Assembly (NCBI GenBank): GCA_021787665.1
Contig: JAJYLN010000014.1
Location: 1-63,880 of the forward strand
Length of the DNA: 63,880 bases
Source: a bacterium
GTDB lineage: Bacteria; JAMCPX01
Direction of reading: 5' to 3'
Every line of letters begins with the position of its first letter. The stretch's first letter is position 1. The position numbers and the translations under genes are program-made. The notes beneath the pieces are model-generated. The model had not been told where the DNA came from. It ran no database searches and saw only the letters and a program-made list of their open reading frames with translations. Of the stretch, positions 52,364 through 63,070 are shown in pieces.

Positions 52364-53413
52364 TCATGCTTGTGTAAAGAGTCTTAATTCTGTTCTCTTT
52401 GCGAACCAGACAAGCACAAGCATGACCGGCACTTCGATAAGCGGACCGATGACCGTTGCAAGGGCAACGGTCGGGTTAAAAGCTGTGATGGCGATCGCAA
52501 TGGCTATTTCGAAATCCCTGCCTGTTGAATTGAATGCAACTGCTACAGAATCCTGATAGCTCAACTTCAGTTTCCAGCCTACGAAATAAACTACGACAAA
52601 CATTGTCCAGAAAAAGATGATCATGGGTACTGCCATCTGTACAATAAATATCGGCTCTTTCAGGATCAGATCACCTTTCAGCGCGAACATGACAATGAGG
52701 GTAAAAAGAAGTCCAACAATGGATAAGGTATCCAGATAGAATTTCAACCGCTGAAACCACGCCTCACCGAATCTTTTTACACCCACTACTCTCGTAAGAA
52801 TGCCTGCAACAAGCGGTATGCCGAGATAGAGGAGTACACTCTCACCGACAACCCATACATCGAAATGGACATTGCCAAGCAATAGCTTTGCATAGACGGG
52901 GATGAGCAGCATTTGAATAATGGAATTAACAGCAACCAGTATGATTGCAAGGGGAGCATTGCCCTGGGCAAGATAGGTAAACACAATCACCATCGCGATG
53001 CAGGGTGCAAGCCCGTAGAGTACAAGGCCGGTGGAAAGGTCCGGCTCATTGCCCAAAAATAGTCTAGCAAGCAGCAGCATGAAAAATGGGGCTATTGCAT
53101 AATTGAAAAACAGTACGATAAGAAGCTGTTTTGGCGATCGTGCTGACTTGCCGAGGTCCTCAAACTTGATATTTGCCATCGCAGGATAAATCATCATAAA
53201 AAGCCCGACAACAACACCGAGAGCCAGGGTATTGGGAAGATTAAATTCATAGGTTCCCTGCAGTATTGCTTTGATCGCATCAATTGGCGGTGTGAGCTGA
53301 AAATTGGATATGCCATAGAGCTTTCCAATACCGATACCTATTGCCATGCTGACAACAACAAAAACCGGCAGCAGTTTGAAATTGTGCAGTTTCTCAAGCA
53401 ATCTTCTGAACAC
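52364..53413 (-). CDS. acr3: Arsenite efflux permease, ACR3 family
   Basis: A 349-residue integral membrane protein with ten hydrophobic segments. The hallmarks of ACR3 are present: a conserved cysteine in LYGLAPCIAMVIVFTYLAQGNAPLAI, FNSTGRDFEIAIAIAITAFNPTVALATVIGPLIEVPVML and LFFNYAIAPFFMLLLARLFL. It exports As(III) and may be energised together with ArsA. It overlaps arsC by 20 bp and is the last gene of the main ars unit. Confidence 0.94.
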   Translation of the reverse strand: MFRRLLEKLHNFKLLPVFVVVSMAIGIGIGKLYGISNFQLTPPIDAIKAILQGTYEFNLPNTLALGVVVGLFMMIYPAMANIKFEDLGKSARSPKQLLIVLFFNYAIAPFFMLLLARLFLGNEPDLSTGLVLYGLAPCIAMVIVFTYLAQGNAPLAIILVAVNSIIQMLLIPVYAKLLLGNVHFDVWVVGESVLLYLGIPLVAGILTRVVGVKRFGEAWFQRLKFYLDTLSIVGLLFTLIVMFALKGDLILKEPIFIVQMAVPMIIFFWTMFVVVYFVGWKLKLSYQDSVAVAFNSTGRDFEIAIAIAITAFNPTVALATVIGPLIEVPVMLVLVWFAKRTELRLFTQA

Positions 53414-53825
53414 GCTTTAACTCCTCAACAAGGATTTCAATCTTTTTCTGTATCTCGTCCCTCGCTTTACGGAAGGCATTCACAACCTCTTCCTCAGTAC
53501 CGGTTGCTGATGTAGGGTCATCGATAGACCAGTGGATCCGTTTGATCCGCGGCGGAGTCATAGGACACAATGCCTCAGCGCTGCTGCAGAGTGTGATGAT
53601 AATGTCCATCGTATGCAACAGACTTTCGTCTATACCTTTTGATGTCTGACAAGAAATATCGACACCTGTCTCTTTCATCACCTGAACTGTTTTCGGATGC
53701 ACTTCGGACGGCTTCACACCAGCACTGTACGGCTCTATCACACCTTTTCCCATCGCCCGGGCAAATCCCTCGGCCATCTGGCTCCGGCAAGAATTGCCGG
53801 TACACATAAACATTATTTTTACCAT
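53394..53825 (-). CDS. arsC: Arsenate reductase, low-molecular-weight phosphatase type
   Basis: 143 residues. The P loop MFMCTGNSCRSQMAEGFARAMG contains the nucleophile motif CX5R, followed by the redox region VDISCQTSKGID and the general-acid loop DIIITLCSSAEALCPMTPP with two cysteines of the thiol relay. It reduces arsenate to arsenite with thioredoxin. It lies between arsA (14 bp) and acr3 (overlap). Confidence 0.94.
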   Translation of the reverse strand: MVKIMFMCTGNSCRSQMAEGFARAMGKGVIEPYSAGVKPSEVHPKTVQVMKETGVDISCQTSKGIDESLLHTMDIIITLCSSAEALCPMTPPRIKRIHWSIDDPTSATGTEEEVVNAFRKARDEIQKKIEILVEELKRVQKIA

Positions 53826-53839
53826 GGATTATCTTCCCA

Positions 53840-55645
53840 TTACAGGAACGCTACGGCCTTTTCAAGGAGCTCAAATCCCTTGATTTCGTCCTGCATCAGA
53901 GGGAATTGAAGCACGGGAAGATTGAACTTATGGTTAATCTCTTCAAGATATTTTATCTGCATTGCTTGTCTATTCTTGAAAAAGTCATTGATACATACCC
54001 TGTCTGTTAAGATTACATTTGCAACGATGAGCTGTGTATATATCCCGGCGTTTTGCAGATCAACCATTGCCCTGTAAGATTCCAAAATAGGCGTTGATTC
54101 CGGATAAAGAACGAATGCAAAAATGGTACGAGCTTTATCGCGAAGCGTCTGTATGATCTTTTTAAACCTGTTTTGGGCATCATCTTTCACAGCAAGACTG
54201 TCTCCCGTACCTGCCATCATCTCAACCTGTTTTGCATAATCAAACGGAAGTTCAAGAAGCCGAAGCGTATGCCCTGTCGGAGCAGTATCAAATACAACCG
54301 TTTGATATTCATTGCTTTCGATGAATTGTATGAATTTATCAAACGCAGCCATCTCCTCGGTGCAGGGTGAATTCAATTCTTCATTCATTGCCGATAGCAT
54401 ATCTTCGGAATACTTTCCCTGTGCCTCTCTGAGTACCTTTTCCTTGTATTCCTGGAATGCTGCTTTCTGGTCAACCATAACTGCATACAAATTGTCGGTA
54501 ACCTTTGACGGATCAGGACCAACCTTTACATTCAATACTTCACCGATATGCGCCGCAGGGTCAGTGGTAACGAGAAGTGTTTTGTAGCCCTTCTGAGCGT
54601 TAAAGAGTGCTGCTATACATGAAATCGTAGTCTTTCCGACACCACCCTTGCCCGTAAAAAACAGGGACTTCGTCGCCCTGTTCCTGCCCGGCAGCCACAG
54701 ACGTTCGATGTCCGGCTGTTCGAGAAAGATATCGGCTGATGCAATGGCGTGCTCAATGCCCGACTTGAATGACGGCTTCCTGTTATCGAACAGCTCGTCT
54801 GCCACCGATTGGAGGGCTTGTAACCCTTTCACTTCATTGTCCCTAAGAAGCATATATTTTGTCGGTTTATGAATCGCTTCCGCAGTCCTCTGTATGACCT
54901 TTTGCTGGGCATCATACTTTTTCTTAAAAAAATCGATACCGCATACCTCTTCGGGCAGTATACCGTTGATGATAAGCTCTCCTGAATCAATCCCGATGGT
55001 CCCAAGTTCTTTGGATGCGCGTTGTGTCTCGTACAGAGAAAGCTCCTCAGGTCGCATGACAAAAACAAATGTTGTCTTTCCGGTGTCCTTCAAGAGCGCT
55101 GTTGCCCTGTCGTATTTGTCCTTTGAATCCTGAATCGTCTGTACGGGGCCAAGGCACGTCTGGCCGCTGCCGCTTGCGGCCTGTTCAATGTGCTTTGACC
55201 AGTCTACCGGAAGCTCAAGCAGACGAATGGTATGGCCTGTCGGGGCGGTATCAAATACGATACTATCGTACTCATCGCCTTCCATAAAATCTATAAACCG
55301 GTCGAACGCCGCCATCTCTGTGGTACAGGGACCGCTGAGATTTTCCTCGAGCGATGCAATAACATCCTCCGGCATAATTTCTCGATACGGTGCGATGATG
55401 TTCTCTTTATACTCTTTGGTTGCTTTGTCCGGTTCGATCTCCATTGCCCATAGGTTCTTTATGTTTTGAATCGGTGTAATTTTATGCCCTATTTCTTGTT
55501 CAAAAACATCTGCAAGGTTGGAAGCCGGGTCTGTGGTCACGATCAATGTTTTTTTGCCGCTCACTGCATCATGGACGGCGCTTGCCGATGCCATAGTGGT
55601 TTTACCGACCCCGCCCTTGCCTGAAAAAAATAAATAGTGCGTCAT
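53840..55645 (-). CDS. arsA: Two-domain arsenite-activated ATPase ArsA
   Basis: 601 residues from a tandem fusion of two homologous halves. Walker A motifs FFSGKGGVGKTT (~5-16) and FFTGKGGVGKTT (~330) are both intact. Each half has a conserved cysteine block (LSGPCTTEMAAFDRFI and LNSPCTEEMAAFDKFI) and a DTAPTGHTIRLLELP switch. The halves are about equally conserved, so both are probably catalytic. ArsA receives As(III) from ArsD and energises the efflux permease. The start at 55645 begins directly with the P-loop strand. Confidence 0.96.
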   Translation of the reverse strand: MTHYLFFSGKGGVGKTTMASASAVHDAVSGKKTLIVTTDPASNLADVFEQEIGHKITPIQNIKNLWAMEIEPDKATKEYKENIIAPYREIMPEDVIASLEENLSGPCTTEMAAFDRFIDFMEGDEYDSIVFDTAPTGHTIRLLELPVDWSKHIEQAASGSGQTCLGPVQTIQDSKDKYDRATALLKDTGKTTFVFVMRPEELSLYETQRASKELGTIGIDSGELIINGILPEEVCGIDFFKKKYDAQQKVIQRTAEAIHKPTKYMLLRDNEVKGLQALQSVADELFDNRKPSFKSGIEHAIASADIFLEQPDIERLWLPGRNRATKSLFFTGKGGVGKTTISCIAALFNAQKGYKTLLVTTDPAAHIGEVLNVKVGPDPSKVTDNLYAVMVDQKAAFQEYKEKVLREAQGKYSEDMLSAMNEELNSPCTEEMAAFDKFIQFIESNEYQTVVFDTAPTGHTLRLLELPFDYAKQVEMMAGTGDSLAVKDDAQNRFKKIIQTLRDKARTIFAFVLYPESTPILESYRAMVDLQNAGIYTQLIVANVILTDRVCINDFFKNRQAMQIKYLEEINHKFNLPVLQFPLMQDEIKGFELLEKAVAFL

Positions 55646-55762: not shown

Positions 55763-56062
55763 TTATCGGCATGAACTCTTGTCCGATTGAGGCATGCCAC
55801 TAAGGACGAAGCCCCGCTGATCAGAAAAATCCATTGAGGCCGCTGCAAGTGTCGCACTTGCATCCTTTTCAACAAATACCCTGAGCCCGTCTCTTTCGAT
55901 AGTTACATCTCCATCCATGGGTTGTTCCACAATATCCAGGGCCAGAGACGGGCCGCAGCATCCAGCGCCTGCGGTAAATATCCTGATACCGGATCCGTCC
56001 GTTCCCTGATCCCTGAGGAATTTTTTAAACCTTTCGATTGCATTACTTGTTAACGTAAGCAT
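55763..56062 (-). CDS. HesB/IscA-like protein of the ars locus (copy 1)
   Basis: 99 residues. It matches the IscA/HesB fold (ERFKKFLRDQG..GIRIFTAG, LRVFVEKDA) but with a Cys-Cys pair at 35-36 in GAGCCGPSLALDIV and no C-terminal CGC motif; a single Cys is at 98. Proteins of this type occur in some deltaproteobacteria, sometimes as selenoproteins with Sec in the CCGPS position; here the codon is a normal Cys. Placement between arsD and arsA suggests an arsenite or thiol role. Inference only. Confidence 0.7.
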   Translation of the reverse strand: MLTLTSNAIERFKKFLRDQGTDGSGIRIFTAGAGCCGPSLALDIVEQPMDGDVTIERDGLRVFVEKDASATLAAASMDFSDQRGFVLSGMPQSDKSSCR

Positions 56063-56078
56063 GTATCCTCCTTTCTCA

Positions 56079-56429
56079 CTATCCCTGCAATGACAGTGTC
56101 ATTGGTCGATGTTTTAACGGCGTAAGGTTCAGTGCCTTGCACAGTTCCTCGTATGAAGGGTAGGCGCCAGTTTTAAAAACAGAGCCGTCCACGATAATTA
56201 TCGGCAATATATGTTTGCCGTTTTTATGAAGAAGATCTGCCACTATCTTGTTTGTCATGAAGTCTTTCGTCTGTTGGGAAAGGTTATAGCGTTCAACCTC
56301 GACACCCTGTTTTTTCAATGCCAGCACGGCATCGTTTACCTTTACCAATACCGGATCGACCACCGGGCCGCACAGTCCTGTGGAACAGCACAGTGCCGGA
56401 TCATAAATCGCTATCTTCGTATGTTGCAT
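56079..56429 (-). CDS. arsD: Arsenite metallochaperone ArsD
   Basis: 116 residues with the conserved cysteines Cys14-Cys15 and Cys20 in ALCCSTGLCGPVVDP, and LKKQGVEVERYNLSQ..TKDFMTNKIVADLLHKNGKHILPIIIVDG. ArsD binds As(III) through these cysteines and passes it to ArsA. The C-terminal cysteine pairs of some ArsDs are absent. Second gene of the main ars unit. Confidence 0.92.
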   Translation of the reverse strand: MQHTKIAIYDPALCCSTGLCGPVVDPVLVKVNDAVLALKKQGVEVERYNLSQQTKDFMTNKIVADLLHKNGKHILPIIIVDGSVFKTGAYPSYEELCKALNLTPLKHRPMTLSLQG

Positions 56430-56440
56430 AGCTTCTCCTT

Positions 56441-56791
56441 TTATCTCGTCTCTGAAAGCGATGTTTCTTTCTCCTGCTCTGCAATTTTTAATTTACCGTC
56501 CATTTCCAGCTTCTCATGCACTTTGTCCCATATCTTTTCCTTTGCGTAGAGCAGCCGTAGTTCTATTTTGTCAGGAAAGCTGATTGCCGTACCTCGGCAC
56601 AAATTACCACAGGTCGTACATCCCACGACACACGCATCGGGGTTTACGACTTTTGGGCCATCTTTGGTCCACTCAAAAACTTTCTGACCACAGTTCATGC
56701 AGATGGAACATTTGTCCTTCAAGCACTTTTCCAAATCTATTATGGGATACCAAGTGACCTTTTCTCTCGGATAACCTACTATCCACGGCAT
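56441..56791 (-). CDS. Ferredoxin-like protein with two 4Fe-4S motifs, ars-associated
   Basis: 116 residues. First cluster motif C23-X4-C28-X2-C31-X2-C34 and second C54-X3-C58-X2-C61-X3-C65 (CVVGCTTCGNLCRGTAISFP). The remainder is an unusual helical tail (KEKIWDKVHEKLEMDGKLK). It heads the second ars operon right behind the operator at 56918. An electron-transfer role for arsenate or thioredoxin chemistry is possible; I know no characterised arsenic function for it. Confidence 0.75.
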   Translation of the reverse strand: MPWIVGYPREKVTWYPIIDLEKCLKDKCSICMNCGQKVFEWTKDGPKVVNPDACVVGCTTCGNLCRGTAISFPDKIELRLLYAKEKIWDKVHEKLEMDGKLKIAEQEKETSLSETR

Positions 56792-56917
56792 ATTCTTTAC
56801 TCCTTCCTTAGTGTAAGTTATTGTATTTATAAACGAAATCTATTTTCTGCATTTGCTTCTTCTTCAGTTTTACTATATCCACTTGGTTCTCTTTTTCTGC
56901 ACGGTGTACTATCTCTG

Positions 56918-56963
56918 TATCACGATATAGTGATATATTAGCTACCAGTGTTTACAATGTCAA
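56918..56963 (-). promoter_or_regulatory. Promoter with ArsR-type operator, main ars unit
   Basis: TTGACA (56958-56963), 17-bp spacer and TAATAT (56935-56940), read on the minus strand. The palindrome TATCAC-N6-GTGATA (56918-56935) overlaps the -10 and start region, matching the operator at arsR. The remaining stretch between 56964 and 57202 holds no gene that I can see. The leader to the ferredoxin gene is about 130 bases. Confidence 0.8.
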
Positions 56964-57202
56964 GAAAAATAGGTCATGGCTTTTATCAAACCGGAGCATG
57001 CAGGTAATACATAAGGGAGTTTTTGTAAAAGCCTTCATCAGGTACAGAGCAACGAGGAATCTCCACACACTCATGTCACTCTGGCATAGCGAACAATCTA
57101 CGTTCTGAGGCCCTATACTCCTGTGTGTTAATTCAGAATTACAAGATGCTGTCATTACGATCGACAACGATTGCGGCAAATACCCATGCAACCCTCATGT
57201 GA

Positions 57203-57553
57203 TTATTCGTCACACTCATCGCATGCATCACCAGCATCATCGTCACATCCCGGGGAACAGCATGAGCCATGGTCTGACTGTGGCATACCCCGCACGACGA
57301 AGCCGTGCTCGCCGGAAAAATCCATCGTCGCCTCTGCAAGGGTCGTCTCTGCATCCTTTTCAACAAATACCCTGAGCCCGTCCTTCTCTATGGTTACATC
57401 CCCGTCTGATGCGTGTTCCACGAGATCAATAGCCAGCGACGGGCCGCAGCATCCGGAATCCGTCAAAAATATCCGTACCCCGTAATTCTCACATCCTTCA
57501 TCCTTGAGAATCCTCTTGAACCTTTGTACCGCCTGGTCCGTTAACGTCGGCAT
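57203..57553 (-). CDS. HesB/IscA-like protein of the ars locus (copy 2, Cys-rich tail)
   Basis: 116 residues, a paralogue of the 55763 gene over the core (VRIFLTDSGCCGPSLAIDLVEH, LRVFVEKDAETTLAEATMDFSGEHGFVVRG) with Cys35-Cys36 again. It has an extra 20-residue tail rich in Cys, Asp and Glu (HGSCCSPGCDD..CDECDE), a likely metal-binding extension. It is the last gene of the arsR unit, 28 bp after the truncated arsD. Confidence 0.72.
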   Translation of the reverse strand: MPTLTDQAVQRFKRILKDEGCENYGVRIFLTDSGCCGPSLAIDLVEHASDGDVTIEKDGLRVFVEKDAETTLAEATMDFSGEHGFVVRGMPQSDHGSCCSPGCDDDAGDACDECDE

Positions 57554-57581: not shown

Positions 57582-57707
57582 TCATTGTTTTTTCAATGCC
57601 TGCACGGCATCGTTTACCTTTACCAACACCGGATCGACCACCGGACCGCACAGCCCCGTGGAGCAGCACGGTGCCGGATCATCGATCGCAACGTTCTTCG
57701 CCTGCAT
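57582..57707 (-). pseudogene. Truncated second arsD (N-terminal 41 residues)
   Basis: The ATG at 57707 opens 41 codons nearly identical in pattern to ArsD 1-40, including the cysteines in APCCSTGLCGPVVDP, then stops after ALKKQ. The C-terminal two thirds are missing. Its start lies inside the arsR end (28-bp overlap), so it is translated with arsR. It might still be a Cys-rich arsenic-binding peptide, or simply debris of a locus duplication. Confidence 0.75.
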
Positions 57708-58095
57708 GGATACTCCTTGCACGCCGTTTCTTCTTCAAGGCAACGACGCTGCAAAACGCAACACCCTTTTTGCTGACCTCGTTCAGACTCCTGTTATCTT
57801 TTTGAAGGATGGGATCGTCCTTGGGTAACGATGGCAGAAGGCGGATGAAGTCACGGTTATGTGCGTTCGTCTTGTCCTTCGAAAGTCTGTAGAATGACCA
57901 CGTGCCCCTTTTCTCCATCTCAACAAGACCCGCATTTTTGAGAATCCCGAGGTGCTTGGAAACCGTCGACTGCCCCATGTCGAGTATGACCATGAACTGG
58001 CAGACGCACAGCTCGCTGTGCGCAAGGAGGTTCAATATCCTTGCCCTTGTTTCATCTGACATCGCCTTGGACGATCTGACGAATTCTCTCAGCAT
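57679..58095 (-). CDS. arsR: ArsR-family arsenic-responsive repressor
   Basis: 138 residues. A winged helix with ELCVCQFMVILDMGQSTVSKHLGILKNAGLVEMEKRGTWSFYRL; the two cysteines in ELCVCQ form the As(III) sensor. Length is ordinary apart from a basic C-terminal extension (KKKRRARS). It reads into the truncated arsD and HesB-like gene, giving the first ars unit. It should repress both ars promoters. Confidence 0.93.
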   Translation of the reverse strand: MLREFVRSSKAMSDETRARILNLLAHSELCVCQFMVILDMGQSTVSKHLGILKNAGLVEMEKRGTWSFYRLSKDKTNAHNRDFIRLLPSLPKDDPILQKDNRSLNEVSKKGVAFCSVVALKKKRRARSIHAGEERCDR

Positions 58096-58108
58096 CTTCT
58101 TATTCCTA

Positions 58109-58154
58109 TATCACCATATAGTGATATGATACCCATGACGGCGTTTTCTGTCAA
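58109..58154 (-). promoter_or_regulatory. Promoter with ArsR-type operator, arsR unit
   Basis: TTGACA (58149-58154), 17-bp spacer and TATCAT (58126-58131) on the minus strand. The palindrome TATCAC-N6-GTGATA (58109-58126) lies directly after the -10 and ends 13 bases before the arsR start. Confidence 0.82.
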
Positions 58155-58216
58155 GGAATTTAAATAGGGTCTACTGGGTAAACCGGTGCTTGGATCTTGT
58201 GATAGATTTTCCTGAG

Positions 58217-59773
58217 TTACAGTTCTATCGTCGGGGCTTCCCCTGTACCTTCTCCGTTCTTCGCGGATTTGACGCCCTTGAGCACGAGCACGATCGGTAT
58301 GGTAATCAGAAAAGCGAGTGCCATGAACAGGAACGCATGGTTGGATGCGATCATAAATGCCTGCTTTGTCACCAGTCCGTTGATCAGCATCAGTGCCTTG
58401 TGCGTTGGCGGGTAAACAGAAGGTGCATGGGTAAGTGCTGCAGCATGTTGTAACAGCATAAGGCTCGGGGTAGTATAGACACTGACGTTCCTGCCGAGAA
58501 TTTCATGATTGAACTGGACATTATTATCCATCATCGTGGCAAGCATGGCAATACCGATAGAGCCTGCGACCTGCCGGATAAGATTATACAATCCGGATGC
58601 ATCGGTCTTGAACTTGTTCTCAATGGTCAGCAGCGATGAAACGTTGAGGGACACGATAATGAAACCGAAACCAATCCCCTGGATAAACTGCGGCCAGAAT
58701 ATCTCCCAAAATCCCATGCCGAGGCTGAGGCTGCCGAGCTGGATGGATGAAATTATTGCCAGGAGAAACCCGGTGCCAACCAGCACGTTCGGTCCCAGTT
58801 TGTTGAACAGCTTGCCCGCAAGAGGCATGGCAAAGGCCATCGCGAGTCCCCGGGACATGATCGCAAGGCCTGCATCATAGGCCGAATATCCCATGATATT
58901 CTGAAGAAACATGGGCAGAAGAAACAGGCTGCCGAACATCCCCAGACTGAAAACCATGGAGAGAAGTGAGTTTGCGCTCAGGTTTATGTCTTTTAAAACC
59001 TTTAAATTTACCGCGGGGTGCTCTGAAAAGAGCTCTTTGACGATAAATAGGATTATGGCAAGTGCCGATACGATCGTTAAGGTCACGATATAATTCGAAG
59101 AAAACCAGTCTTTGTACTCTCCGTCCGTCAGGACAATCTGCATGGCACCCAGGCCGATGGTAAGAAAGGTTATCCCGAACCAATCGACGCCGCCCTTGAG
59201 CTTCTGAATAAAGGGAGGGTCCTCGATAAACAGATACAGCAGGACAAGGTTGATCAGACCGATGGGCAGATTGACATAAAAGACCCATGGCCATGAATAG
59301 TTGGTGACAATCCATCCGCCGAGGTACGGGCCTATCGCAGGTCCGAGGACAATGGCAAGGCTGAATATCGCCATCGCAGTTCCCTGTTCTTCCCGTGGAA
59401 ACGTTTCGGCGAGGATTGCCTGGGCAAGCGGTATCAGTGCACCGCCGCCCATGCCCTGCAGGAGCCGAAACACGACGATGGAGGGGAGATCCCATGCGAC
59501 ACCACATAATAAGGAGCTCACCGTGAACAACAGGACCGACAGCATGTAATAGTTTTTTCTTCCCAAAAGAGAACTGAAGAAACTTACCAACGGCATCAGG
59601 ACCACACCGGAGAGCATATAGCCGGTTATCACCCAGGTTATTTCTTCTATGGATGCCGACATGGACCCTTTGATATAGGGCAATGCCACATTGACAACAC
59701 TCATATCTATACTGAAGAGCGTTGTGCTGGGAATGACCGCTAAGGTGACCAGCCATTTATTGGTTTTCGTCAT
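58217..59773 (-). CDS. DHA2-family multidrug efflux transporter (EmrB-like)
   Basis: 518 residues with 14 predicted membrane spans. It has the MFS motif A loop SSLLGRKNYYMLSV, the antiporter motif C region (ALGPAIGPYLGGWIV) and the DHA2 N-terminal ITWVITGYMLSGVVLMPL. The drug-binding Asp near VNVALP is present. It is the inner-membrane pump of a tripartite system with the HlyD-like and TolC-like genes just upstream (12 bp after the HlyD stop). Substrates cannot be told. Confidence 0.9.
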   Translation of the reverse strand: MTKTNKWLVTLAVIPSTTLFSIDMSVVNVALPYIKGSMSASIEEITWVITGYMLSGVVLMPLVSFFSSLLGRKNYYMLSVLLFTVSSLLCGVAWDLPSIVVFRLLQGMGGGALIPLAQAILAETFPREEQGTAMAIFSLAIVLGPAIGPYLGGWIVTNYSWPWVFYVNLPIGLINLVLLYLFIEDPPFIQKLKGGVDWFGITFLTIGLGAMQIVLTDGEYKDWFSSNYIVTLTIVSALAIILFIVKELFSEHPAVNLKVLKDINLSANSLLSMVFSLGMFGSLFLLPMFLQNIMGYSAYDAGLAIMSRGLAMAFAMPLAGKLFNKLGPNVLVGTGFLLAIISSIQLGSLSLGMGFWEIFWPQFIQGIGFGFIIVSLNVSSLLTIENKFKTDASGLYNLIRQVAGSIGIAMLATMMDNNVQFNHEILGRNVSVYTTPSLMLLQHAAALTHAPSVYPPTHKALMLINGLVTKQAFMIASNHAFLFMALAFLITIPIVLVLKGVKSAKNGEGTGEAPTIEL

Positions 59774-59785
59774 GATCGTTCCTGC

Positions 59786-60874
59786 TCACTGCTTGATCAA
59801 CACATACGGGTAAACCGAGAGCCCCGGATACAGCGGTGTGTCCGTGTACGATGCCTGATCCAGAACAATTTTCACCGGCACCCGCTGAACCACCTTGATA
59901 AAGTTACCGGTTGCATTCTCCGGAGGCAGCAGGCTGAAGGCAGAACCACTGCCCGACTGGAAGCTCGCGACATGGCCTTTGAATGTCCTGCCTGGATACG
60001 CGTCGATCTTGATGTTGACCGGCGCCCCGATCTTTATCTTGTTGATATCTGTTTCCTTGAAATTGGCGACAATCCACACCTTGTCAAGGTCGACCACACT
60101 CAGGTAGGGAATCCCCGGCATAACGTATGCTCCGGGGTTGACGTTCTTCTTGGTTACATAGCCGTTACACGGGGCGTACACCGTTGTCCTCTGGAGATTG
60201 ATCGCTGCGAGCTTATAGCCGGCCTCAAGCGCATGCGTGACCATTGTTTTGGTTTTCAATTCTTCTTTGAGATTCTGAATACCGGTCTTCAGTTGTACGA
60301 TGGTCGCCTGATCGGCACCGACCTTCGCCGAACTCATCGCATATTTCGTTTTCATTTCATCGTACGAAAGCCTGGACACTGCATTGTCTTTCAAAAGGTT
60401 CTCATAGCGTTGTGCATTTTCTTCATTGAGCGTATTCATCGCCGTATCGGCCTTCAACTCATATCCCGCCTTGATCAACATTTCCTTTTGCATAGCTATC
60501 GAAAGGTTGATCTGTTTGAGTTCATTTTTGTTTGCCTGATACTGTGCCTGTGCCCTGTTTGTGTTCTCTGTATAGTCGGACGGATCGATGGTAAACAGGG
60601 GATCTCCTGCCTTCACGTACTGATTGTCGCGAACAAAGACCTTCATGACCTGCCCTTTGACCTGCGGAGCTACCGGAACAATGGCACTGCTTCCATCGAC
60701 AAAGGCATCATCCGTGTCGACATGGGTGAACATGAACCGTATCGTCGGTATCTCAGCTATCACGAGTATCAGTGCAACCACTGCCGAGACCATCAGGATG
60801 ATCTTTCTTTTTGAATTTTTTCCCGGTTTTGAAGCGGGCTGTTTTGGTTTGTTTTCCATGTTATTATTTTCCAT
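59786..60874 (-). CDS. HlyD/EmrA-family membrane fusion protein
   Basis: 362 residues. A basic N-terminus, one transmembrane helix (IILMVSAVVALILVIAEI), then biotin-lipoyl-like halves (VAPQVKGQVMKVFVRDNQYVKAGDPLFTIDPSDY and TVYAPCNGYVTKKNVNPGAYV) around a long coiled-coil hairpin. It bridges the EmrB-like pump and TolC. It overlaps the tolC-like gene by 11 bp. Confidence 0.92.
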   Translation of the reverse strand: MENNNMENKPKQPASKPGKNSKRKIILMVSAVVALILVIAEIPTIRFMFTHVDTDDAFVDGSSAIVPVAPQVKGQVMKVFVRDNQYVKAGDPLFTIDPSDYTENTNRAQAQYQANKNELKQINLSIAMQKEMLIKAGYELKADTAMNTLNEENAQRYENLLKDNAVSRLSYDEMKTKYAMSSAKVGADQATIVQLKTGIQNLKEELKTKTMVTHALEAGYKLAAINLQRTTVYAPCNGYVTKKNVNPGAYVMPGIPYLSVVDLDKVWIVANFKETDINKIKIGAPVNIKIDAYPGRTFKGHVASFQSGSGSAFSLLPPENATGNFIKVVQRVPVKIVLDQASYTDTPLYPGLSVYPYVLIKQ

Positions 60875-62243
60875 AATCGTTCCTCCCTATGCTTCGTTCA
60901 AGCTTTGCTACATTTATTTCATAACCATACAGGGCATTATAATAATTCAGTTCAGCCTGTGTAAGGTACGTTTGTGCGTCCAAGACTTCGGTGGATGTGA
61001 CCAGTTGCTGTCCATACTGCTTATTGGTGATCCTATAGTTTTCTTTTGCCTGTTCGAGGGCTGTCTCGGATGTGCTGATGTCATCGGCAGCAGTATGCAA
61101 TGCTATAAAATCACTCTTTACCTGAAGTTTGACCTGGTTCATAAATGCATGGAGCTGATTTTGCAGTGCCGATTTCCTATAATCTGCCTGCTGGGCGTTG
61201 TCCGTCGTTTTGAGCCAGTTAAACAGCGTCCACTTGATGCCGATGCCTACCATCTGATTATATTGATTCTGATAACTGTTTCGTGCGGCAAGACCGTCCT
61301 GTCCTGCCTGGGTATACGCTGCAAACGCAAAGACATGCGGATAATATTCACTTTCCGCGAGCCTGACGTGGGTATTCGCCTCCTGAACCCGTATGCCCAT
61401 CGCCTTGAGCTCGGGTCGTTCCTGCAAAGCCTCATCCGTCAATACCGTCAGCGTTTCTGTCGACGATGCGACAGAAGTGATATCCTGTAATTGCACATCT
61501 TGGTTCAAATCTCTGTTTAATACGGTATTGAAGTTTGCCCGTGCAATATCGAGGTTTGCCGCTGCCTGGGCTTTAAATTGAACTGCATCCGCCAATGCAA
61601 CCTGAGATTTGAGCAGATCATTATATGCAATAATGCCTCGATCGTAAAAGTGTCGTGCCTCGTCCTCATGCGAGGTCAACTGTTGCACCCGTTCGTCAGC
61701 AACTTGAAGTTGTTTTTGTGCGCGTAGTGTATTGAAGTAAGCAATCTTTGCCTCCTCCGCAATGTTGAGCACAGCCTCTTCCCGTTGTACCCTGGCAACG
61801 TCGATGCCTAATTCGCCAAGTTTGTGCTGATTGAAGAGTGCAAAGCCCGTGAAAATCGGCTGCTTGAGCTCGATTTCCCAGTTTATCAATGCCGTTCCGT
61901 TCATATACATGCGCGGCGGGAGGTACACGGAGTCTCCATTGGGTTTTCCTGCATTAAAAACCGGCAGGGGCCTGTGCGGTATTTGCAGGTATGGCTGGTT
62001 CCTCAATCCTACGGCGCTGTAGTCAAAGGAAAGTTCCGGAAGCATGGATGCCGTTGCACCGCGACGCTGCGCCTGAGCAGCCTTGATCTGATCCATCGTT
62101 GCCTGTATCAAGTAATTATTATGGATCGCCTCCTGCACGGCTGAATCCGGCGTAATTACGTCATCTGCCGTGGCGTGAACAGCAAAAGCCAGGAGTGCAG
62201 CACCTGTTAAAAGAACCGAAAGAGAGAATGTTTTTGCTTTCAT
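60864..62243 (-). CDS. TolC-family outer-membrane efflux protein
   Basis: 459 residues with a signal ending near VHATA, then repeated helical hairpins characteristic of TolC: PDSAVQEAIHNNYLIQATMDQIKAAQAQRRGATASMLPEL and YQNQYNQMVGIGIKWTLFNWLKT. It forms the outer-membrane channel of the drug efflux system. Its start overlaps the stop of a 15-codon leader by four bases. Confidence 0.92.
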   Translation of the reverse strand: MKAKTFSLSVLLTGAALLAFAVHATADDVITPDSAVQEAIHNNYLIQATMDQIKAAQAQRRGATASMLPELSFDYSAVGLRNQPYLQIPHRPLPVFNAGKPNGDSVYLPPRMYMNGTALINWEIELKQPIFTGFALFNQHKLGELGIDVARVQREEAVLNIAEEAKIAYFNTLRAQKQLQVADERVQQLTSHEDEARHFYDRGIIAYNDLLKSQVALADAVQFKAQAAANLDIARANFNTVLNRDLNQDVQLQDITSVASSTETLTVLTDEALQERPELKAMGIRVQEANTHVRLAESEYYPHVFAFAAYTQAGQDGLAARNSYQNQYNQMVGIGIKWTLFNWLKTTDNAQQADYRKSALQNQLHAFMNQVKLQVKSDFIALHTAADDISTSETALEQAKENYRITNKQYGQQLVTSTEVLDAQTYLTQAELNYYNALYGYEINVAKLERSIGRNDYGK

Positions 62244-62287
62244 AAATTCACCCTGCTCCGTATCGTTCTTTGTATCCTATTCATCAT
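62240..62287 (-). CDS. Short leader ORF translationally coupled to tolC-like gene (15 aa)
   Basis: Begins ATGATG at 62287 after a strong AGGGAGGAAC site and encodes MMNRIQRTIRSRVNL, then a stop whose TGA overlaps the tolC ATG (ATGA). The tolC start itself has only a weak site (CAGGGTG). Translation of tolC may depend on this basic leader peptide. Its sequence is not conserved in any way I can test. Confidence 0.5.
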   Translation of the reverse strand: MMNRIQRTIRSRVNL

Positions 62288-62303
62288 GTTCCTCCCTTGT
62301 TGG

Positions 62304-62320
62304 TAATCACTTACATACAA
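62304..62320 (-). promoter_or_regulatory. Operator-like sequence upstream of tolC-like gene
   Basis: Contains TAATCACTTACATACAA, nearly the same as the sequence in the tetR promoter at 62962. It likely binds the TetR-family regulator so that drugs induce the efflux operon. Confidence 0.55.
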
Positions 62321-62359
62321 ATATATCACATTAATTCCCGTGTACGTGGGTGCATAAAA

Positions 62360-62950
62360 TTATTTCAGCAGCATGCGCTGCATCAACGAGAACATTCTCT
62401 TACAGAAGTTATGAATTTCAAACTGGTCTTTATTCAGAATCATTTCTATGTTCAATGTTATGGGAATGCCCATATAGATGGTAGCAATATCGTCTACAGC
62501 AAGCTTCTTGTTCCATAGACCCTCGGCCATCCCGTCCCGTATGATCTTGCTGAACAGGGATTTCTGTTCAGCAAGTATTTCGTGTAAATTATTTTTCAGT
62601 TCCTTATCGTTCATATGGGCGGCTTCTGAAAAAAGAAGTATCGTAATTCCTTTATTATCAATGAGATATTTTACATGCCAGCAAAGGAAGGCAAACAATT
62701 TATTCTCCGATTCTTCGGCACTGAGGGCAATCTTCCTCATTTCACCGATGAGATCTGTCTTTACGTCCTGCATAATGCCGAGCATGATGTCCCGCTTTGA
62801 CTTGAAGTGGCGGAAAATCGCACCTTCGGTGATACCGACCCTGTTTGCCAGATTCCTTGTTGATAGTTGGTTTAGCCCGTCCTTGAAAATAATGTCCAGC
62901 ACGGCCTTTTTAATCTGCTCCTGCCTGATTTCAGTTGTTTGTCGTTCCAT
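62360..62950 (-). CDS. TetR-family regulator of the efflux operon
   Basis: 196 residues from the ATG at 62950 (an in-frame ATG at 62968 lies in the promoter and was not chosen). The helix-turn-helix is LSTRNLANRVGITEGAIFRHFKSKRDIMLG (~34-63), followed by helical ligand-binding sequence. It lies upstream of the emr/tolC genes on the same strand. An operator-like repeat shared between its own promoter and the tolC leader indicates it controls both. Inducers unknown. Confidence 0.9.
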   Translation of the reverse strand: MERQTTEIRQEQIKKAVLDIIFKDGLNQLSTRNLANRVGITEGAIFRHFKSKRDIMLGIMQDVKTDLIGEMRKIALSAEESENKLFAFLCWHVKYLIDNKGITILLFSEAAHMNDKELKNNLHEILAEQKSLFSKIIRDGMAEGLWNKKLAVDDIATIYMGIPITLNIEMILNKDQFEIHNFCKRMFSLMQRMLLK

Positions 62951-62957
62951 AGTAAAT

Positions 62958-62986
62958 GATATAATCACTTACTTACATGTTGTCAA
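62958..62986 (-). promoter_or_regulatory. tetR promoter with operator-like spacer
   Basis: TTGACA (62981-62986), 17-bp spacer and TATATC (62958-62963) on the minus strand. TAATCACTTACTTACA (62962-62977, plus orientation) sits mostly within the spacer, so bound repressor would block RNA polymerase. This suggests autoregulation. Confidence 0.6.
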
Positions 62987-63070
62987 GCATTTTTTTGCAG
63001 ATTTTTATCCGGACAGCTTCTCGTGTAAGGAGTACACTGAATTTTATACATAAGGTCTTTTAGAAACACC

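Follow-up and report, generated by a model that had tools for sequence, protein, structure and literature searches.

HesB/IscA-like proteins of an ars operon as probable dedicated arsenic-handling proteins, with relatives that look like selenoproteins

Why would an ars operon that already encodes ArsD also carry two IscA-fold proteins and a ferredoxin-like protein? To our knowledge, no As(III) chaperone other than ArsD is established for the ArsA pump. ArsD hands As(III) to ArsA via Cys12, Cys13 and Cys18 (PMC12607644). The window considered here (the whole 63,880-nucleotide stretch of bacterial DNA that was analysed) raises this question, as a preliminary description had placed two HesB/IscA paralogues and a ferredoxin among its ars genes. 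This placement is correct: arsR, arsD, arsA, arsC and acr3 are all matched by family models, and the operon runs on the minus strand in the transcription order arsR, truncated arsD', HesB1, a second ArsR-type operator, ferredoxin, arsD, HesB2, arsA, arsC, acr3. Its features are the following:

58108..58127, no strand assigned: inferred ArsR operator 1, upstream of arsR, ATATCACCATATAGTGATAT
57679..58095, minus strand: arsR repressor (NF033788 87.8 bits, cut-off 55)
57585..57708, minus strand: putative arsD' remnant, 41 codons, CCSTGLC kept (PF06953 39.9 bits, profile positions 2-39; also found by the genome search)
57203..57553, minus strand: HesB1, 116 aa, IscA-fold protein with CC at 35-36 and a Cys/Asp-rich tail (PF01521 39.1 bits, alignment)
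56917..56936, no strand assigned: inferred ArsR operator 2, upstream of the ferredoxin gene, GTATCACGATATAGTGATAT
56806..56885, minus strand: what is left of the 5' end of a DUF169 gene, limits approximate; in an alignment, 56852-56940 corresponds to the operator plus initial codons of DUF169 in G007, and no more of the gene is present
56441..56791, minus strand: ferredoxin-like protein with eight Cys, 116 aa; two further genomes encode close homologues (83% identity in G007) preceded by this operator
56079..56429, minus strand: arsD, full length (PF06953 131 bits; NF033727 125 bits, cut-off 90)
55763..56062, minus strand: HesB2, 99 aa, IscA-fold protein with CC at 35-36 and one Cys in its tail, gene flanked by arsD and arsA (PF01521 40.1 bits)
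53840..55645, minus strand: arsA ATPase (PF02374 498 bits)
53394..53825, minus strand: arsC arsenate reductase, thioredoxin type (TIGR02691 164 bits, slightly below the cut-off of 174)
52364..53413, minus strand: acr3-type arsenite efflux protein (TIGR00832 265 bits, cut-off 283)

Three of these elements had been overlooked in the earlier reading, namely arsD' (57708-57585), the operator-like palindrome at 56917-56936 and the DUF169 remnant. The first overlaps the end of arsR, retains the CC pair and the third Cys, and could be either a remnant or a mini-ArsD. The palindrome ATATCACNATATAGTGATAT is present in two copies, upstream of arsR and of the ferredoxin gene, for a chance expectation of 0.01 in the window, and these are the sole two sites of the whole 2.25 Mb assembly; their position and symmetry suggest that ArsR binds to both. 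Among nine genomes sampled from the phylum (drafts 80-99% complete), operator sites occur in 7/7 with an ArsD match and in 0/2 without, and none was found with a reversed control pattern.

Are the two HesB proteins then Fe-S carriers, or something else? Open reading frames, PF01521 matches (both above the cut-off of 26.3) and alignment agree on the paralogue pair as described, CC positions and tail included. HesB1 and HesB2 are 64% identical, the former ending in the tail SCCSPGCDDDAGDACDECDE and the latter in SSCR. When HesB1 is modelled (pLDDT 77), its tail comes out unstructured and its fold resembles that of E. coli IscA (Foldseek E 2e-7, TM 0.66-0.77), with no thioredoxin-like fold among the structural matches. 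The domain and the fold are thus common to the window proteins and the A-type carriers IscA, SufA and ErpA, but the window proteins have CC in the loop, lack the C-terminal C-x-C motif and miss every equivalog cut-off (53.1 of 58.8 for TIGR00049, with SufA, IscA and ErpA scores far below). Another resemblance is to ArsD, which also has a vicinal Cys pair with a third Cys and arsA as neighbour; ArsD, an As(III) chaperone, nevertheless belongs to another fold and family, its profile PF06953 giving zero match to HesB1 or HesB2, and the likeness is one of functional analogy, not homology. The YneR/PdhA integrative model is also among the structural matches, in line with a metabolic regulator acting via protein-protein contact, a role demonstrated for the IscA-fold pyruvate dehydrogenase inhibitor YneR/PdhI of B. 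subtilis (PMC10090944). We regard such a role as very improbable here, as it leaves the conserved chalcogen site unexplained and the linkage is to arsA, arsD and arsC.

Absence of ars linkage in other genomes, which the preliminary description had named as refuting its proposal, was looked for, and linkage was found in the phylum, in Paenibacillales, on plasmids and in Nitrospirota. In the phylum, the order arsD-HesB-arsA is present in 6/6 testable genomes (G000, G002, G003, G006, G007 and G008; G005 was left out of the count, its contig stopping within arsD). Searches with both PF01521 and HesB proteins, the latter recovering the G002 HesB missed by the former, revealed no other IscA-domain protein in the nine genomes and none at all in the arsD-less G001 and G004, and no suf genes adjoin HesB in this phylum. 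The TGA of the G008 HesB gene was considered as a selenocysteine (Sec) codon and ruled out, being a stop codon only. Among 246 Paenibacillales genomes, 13/13 GCCGP-type HesB loci (11 genomes) lie directly after arsA with arsD about 2 kb off, and ArsD is encoded in 20 of the 246, the chance of the HesB/ArsD genome overlap being 4e-14. HesB lies within the ars cluster in 12/12 plasmid regions examined (eleven from Bacillota, one from Stenotrophomonas; in the Alicyclobacillus region arsA is unseen before the record end), and five of 295 Nitrospirota genomes (G304, G505, G508, G530 and G534) have the order arsD-HesB-arsA, with HesB directly after arsD.

This conserved linkage bears out HesB as an extra ars part, but such an arrangement is already published: a HesB-like orf7 is known in the ars1 operon of Bacillus sp. 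CDB3 (PMC4562236, PMC5481582) and hesB in an Exiguobacterium ars operon (PMC8779447), both, like the window, with arsD and arsA in the operon. The Bacillota relatives examined have the CC loop of the window proteins; their genes, however, come after arsA and their proteins sit on a separate tree branch, whereas the window gene is duplicated and placed between arsD and arsA, the CDB3 and Exiguobacterium proteins being compared by description only.

In a first tree, with nif HesB as outgroup, the window HesB proteins cluster with those of their own phylum (HesB1 with G002), and the ars-linked Bacillota proteins form a separate, strongly supported group. A single origin of ars-linked HesB was rejected by the AU test on this first tree, before Nitrospirota ars forms were added (p-AU 0.0001); the base of a larger tree including the Nitrospirota ars and Sec forms is poorly resolved. 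The first tree suggests that HesB was recruited into ars operons at least two times, at different positions, any further history being uncertain. The window ars locus itself is a mosaic, since G002 shares the block 57586-62993 (from arsD' via arsR and an MFS/HlyD/TolC efflux set to a TetR regulator) at 86% identity and HesB1 groups with G002, while arsD, arsA, arsC and acr3 are closer to other genomes. Mosaicism and a block in common with G002 would also suit a passenger gene without arsenic function, carried in mobile ars operons. This possibility is hardly credible given the repeated recruitment on the first tree, the exclusive co-occurrence in the phylum, and the purifying selection acting on HesB1 and HesB2 (dN/dS of 0.25 with the G002 and 0.175 with the G003 orthologue, respectively).

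The window proteins had also been presented as Cys forms of a family that includes selenoproteins, and the Nitrospirota relatives agree with this view. Many of these homologues have an in-frame TGA exactly at the CC position (GGGUGPSLAMDIA versus GAGCCGPSLALDIVE), and 13/13 TGA forms have a SECIS-like stem (GGCTAT-GGAC-ATAGCC) at a fixed distance 3' of it, a base of the 3' arm being changed in one of them. Some of these genes also end in TGA, which is therefore not a general sense codon there, and by these signatures many close relatives look like selenoproteins. For HesB1 and HesB2 themselves Sec was ruled out, both having CC codons and no SECIS-like stem. HesB-like selenoproteins have been published (PMC1794560, PMC13188914, PMC9312934), and those of TIGR01911 and NF038090 have the IscA fold and the loop Sec or Cys in common with the window family. 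The window and Nitrospirota proteins nonetheless fall below both cut-offs (HesB2 scoring 51.2 of 85 for NF038090 and 28.5 of 66 for TIGR01911), with a motif UxPSLAMDIA instead of UxGP. A search of open-access literature found no paper linking HesB-like selenoproteins to arsenic operons.

In G304 and G505, Cys and predicted Sec copies stand side by side, and a Sec-to-Cys change is suggested in G505, as its Cys copy still forms the stem. Paired Cys and predicted Sec HesB genes are seen in the Nitrospirota ars operons L144 and L209, one arsD copy of L144 being a fragment. Four Cytobacillus ars plasmids (L052, L234, L235, L236) have an in-frame TGA in the HesB loop followed by a 7-bp SECIS-like stem; the TGA-form genes exist in two versions with mostly synonymous differences, and are unannotated in the gene table.

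An ars gene, mostly arsC, lies within 1.5 kb of 15/22 predicted Sec forms, versus 0/20 in the sister PSYG/PSFG Cys subfamily (p 2e-6). The 22 are not a random sample, as homologues were ordered by their similarity to HesB2 and those with TGA were picked. The idea that Nitrospirota Sec forms stand alone was wrong, most of them adjoining arsC or acr3; conversely, the PSYG/PSFG forms were ruled out as ars parts, and 13 of their 20 loci have a hemB-like neighbour. L020, L022, L023, L025 and others are such stand-alone CCGPS[YF]G HesB genes, often immediately upstream of the hemB-like gene. A sufC-like neighbour was found for 9/22 predicted Sec forms, most also with a sufB-like one, several of these nine retaining C-x-C, and the gene order arsC-HesB(Sec)-sufC-sufB recurs in several Nitrospirota.

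These sufC/sufB-like neighbours speak for an Fe-S role. The main rival explanation is an arsenic-dedicated A-type Fe-S carrier: HesB would rebuild or protect Fe-S proteins that As(III) has damaged, and the ferredoxin, placed under the same operator, would donate electrons. The IscA fold and the PF01521 domain are consistent with it. Against it, the tail C-x-C is found in 0/34 rows of arsD/arsA-type loci, a table that leaves out Sec forms from genomes without arsD, and 34/34 have at least three Cys/Sec. This loss, and a lineage without any other A-type protein, incline us to As(III) handling, and with suf genes never adjoining HesB in the window's phylum they make the Fe-S carrier rather unlikely. 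Among the predicted Sec forms from genomes without arsD, many beside suf genes, C-x-C is kept in 7/9. The tail comparison separates two flavours, so that As(III) binding is favoured for the arsA-linked one, and an Fe-S role is possible for the other. Could the CC pair or Sec instead be catalytic, for example to reduce ArsC or oxidised thiols while arsenate is being reduced? CC and Sec interchange, Sec forms frequently adjoin arsC, and trxB is present in some Bacillota ars clusters, but an IscA fold that is not thioredoxin-like, and linkage to arsA and not arsC in two groups, render a thiol/selenol redox protein improbable.

HesB1 and HesB2 are probably dedicated arsenic-handling proteins. The specific explanation that we prefer, and consider about equally likely to be right or wrong, is that HesB is a Cys- or Sec-based As(III) carrier beside ArsD and ArsA. 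Upon entry of As(III), ArsR would release the operon, and HesB would coordinate As(III) with the chalcogens of its loop (Cys35-Cys36, replaced by Sec in relatives) and one Cys of the flexible C-terminus, a three-ligand soft site similar to that of ArsD on a different fold; it would then store As(III), or shuttle it between ArsC/ArsD and ArsA so that it can be exported. In the same arsenic response, the ferredoxin would be a distinct redox component under ArsR control, derived from a DUF169-ferredoxin unit. The carrier has in its favour the operon position, the shared operator, the recurrent ars linkage, the CC/Sec interchange among relatives and the C-x-C loss. Against it, the fold and nearest profiles are those of Fe-S carriers, 9/22 Sec forms have sufC-like neighbours, the tail lacks structure in the model, where the predicted site geometry is not visible, and the operon already has ArsD for this task. 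More broadly, and with somewhat less than even confidence, ArsD may not be the only type of As(III) metallochaperone: HesB would be another, with an IscA fold, that entered ars operons on more than one occasion and has Sec or Cys-Cys as interchangeable metalloid ligands. If true, an ArsA partner of another fold with selenoprotein versions changes the picture of As(III) movement, and part of an uncharacterised selenoprotein group gains a function; an arsenic-specific Fe-S carrier would instead provide direct genetic evidence for Fe-S clusters as a main arsenic target.

The ferredoxin is a looser ars companion than HesB. Its eight cysteines, all conserved with G007, form two groups of four (C-x4-C-x2-C-x2-C and C-x3-C-x2-C-x3-C), as expected of the two-cluster protein first described, but the first motif is atypical (not CxxCxxCxxxC) and all Pfam Fer4 models stay below cut-off (Fer4_2 at 13.5 of 24.5); one homologue, whose first motif is the standard one, passes Fer4_9. 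Saturated dS precluded a dN/dS estimate. It is present in 3/9 genomes of the phylum, downstream of the same operator in 3/3, and of five Nitrospirota hits G505 alone is ars-linked (HesB-arsA-DUF169-small ORF-ferredoxin-FmdE-TSUP), no ars core gene being near the other four, which rules it out as a constant ars part. In G005 and G007 the order is DUF169 then ferredoxin, and the window keeps just the first DUF169 codons between operator and ferredoxin, the latter belonging to a DUF169-ferredoxin unit.

In other genomes of the phylum, the operator stands next to or in front of arsC-acr3, a region holding arsM-acr3, a cluster of FmdE, porin, TSUP and chrA genes, and a DUF169-ferredoxin pair. The FmdE-like, porin, TSUP and chrA-type genes under this operator are possible further arsenic-regulated genes. 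At L077, L079, L082 and L008:16515, the ArsR-type operator precedes an FmdE-like gene, with a phosphate-selective-type porin in three of them and TSUP permease and chrA-type genes following in some.
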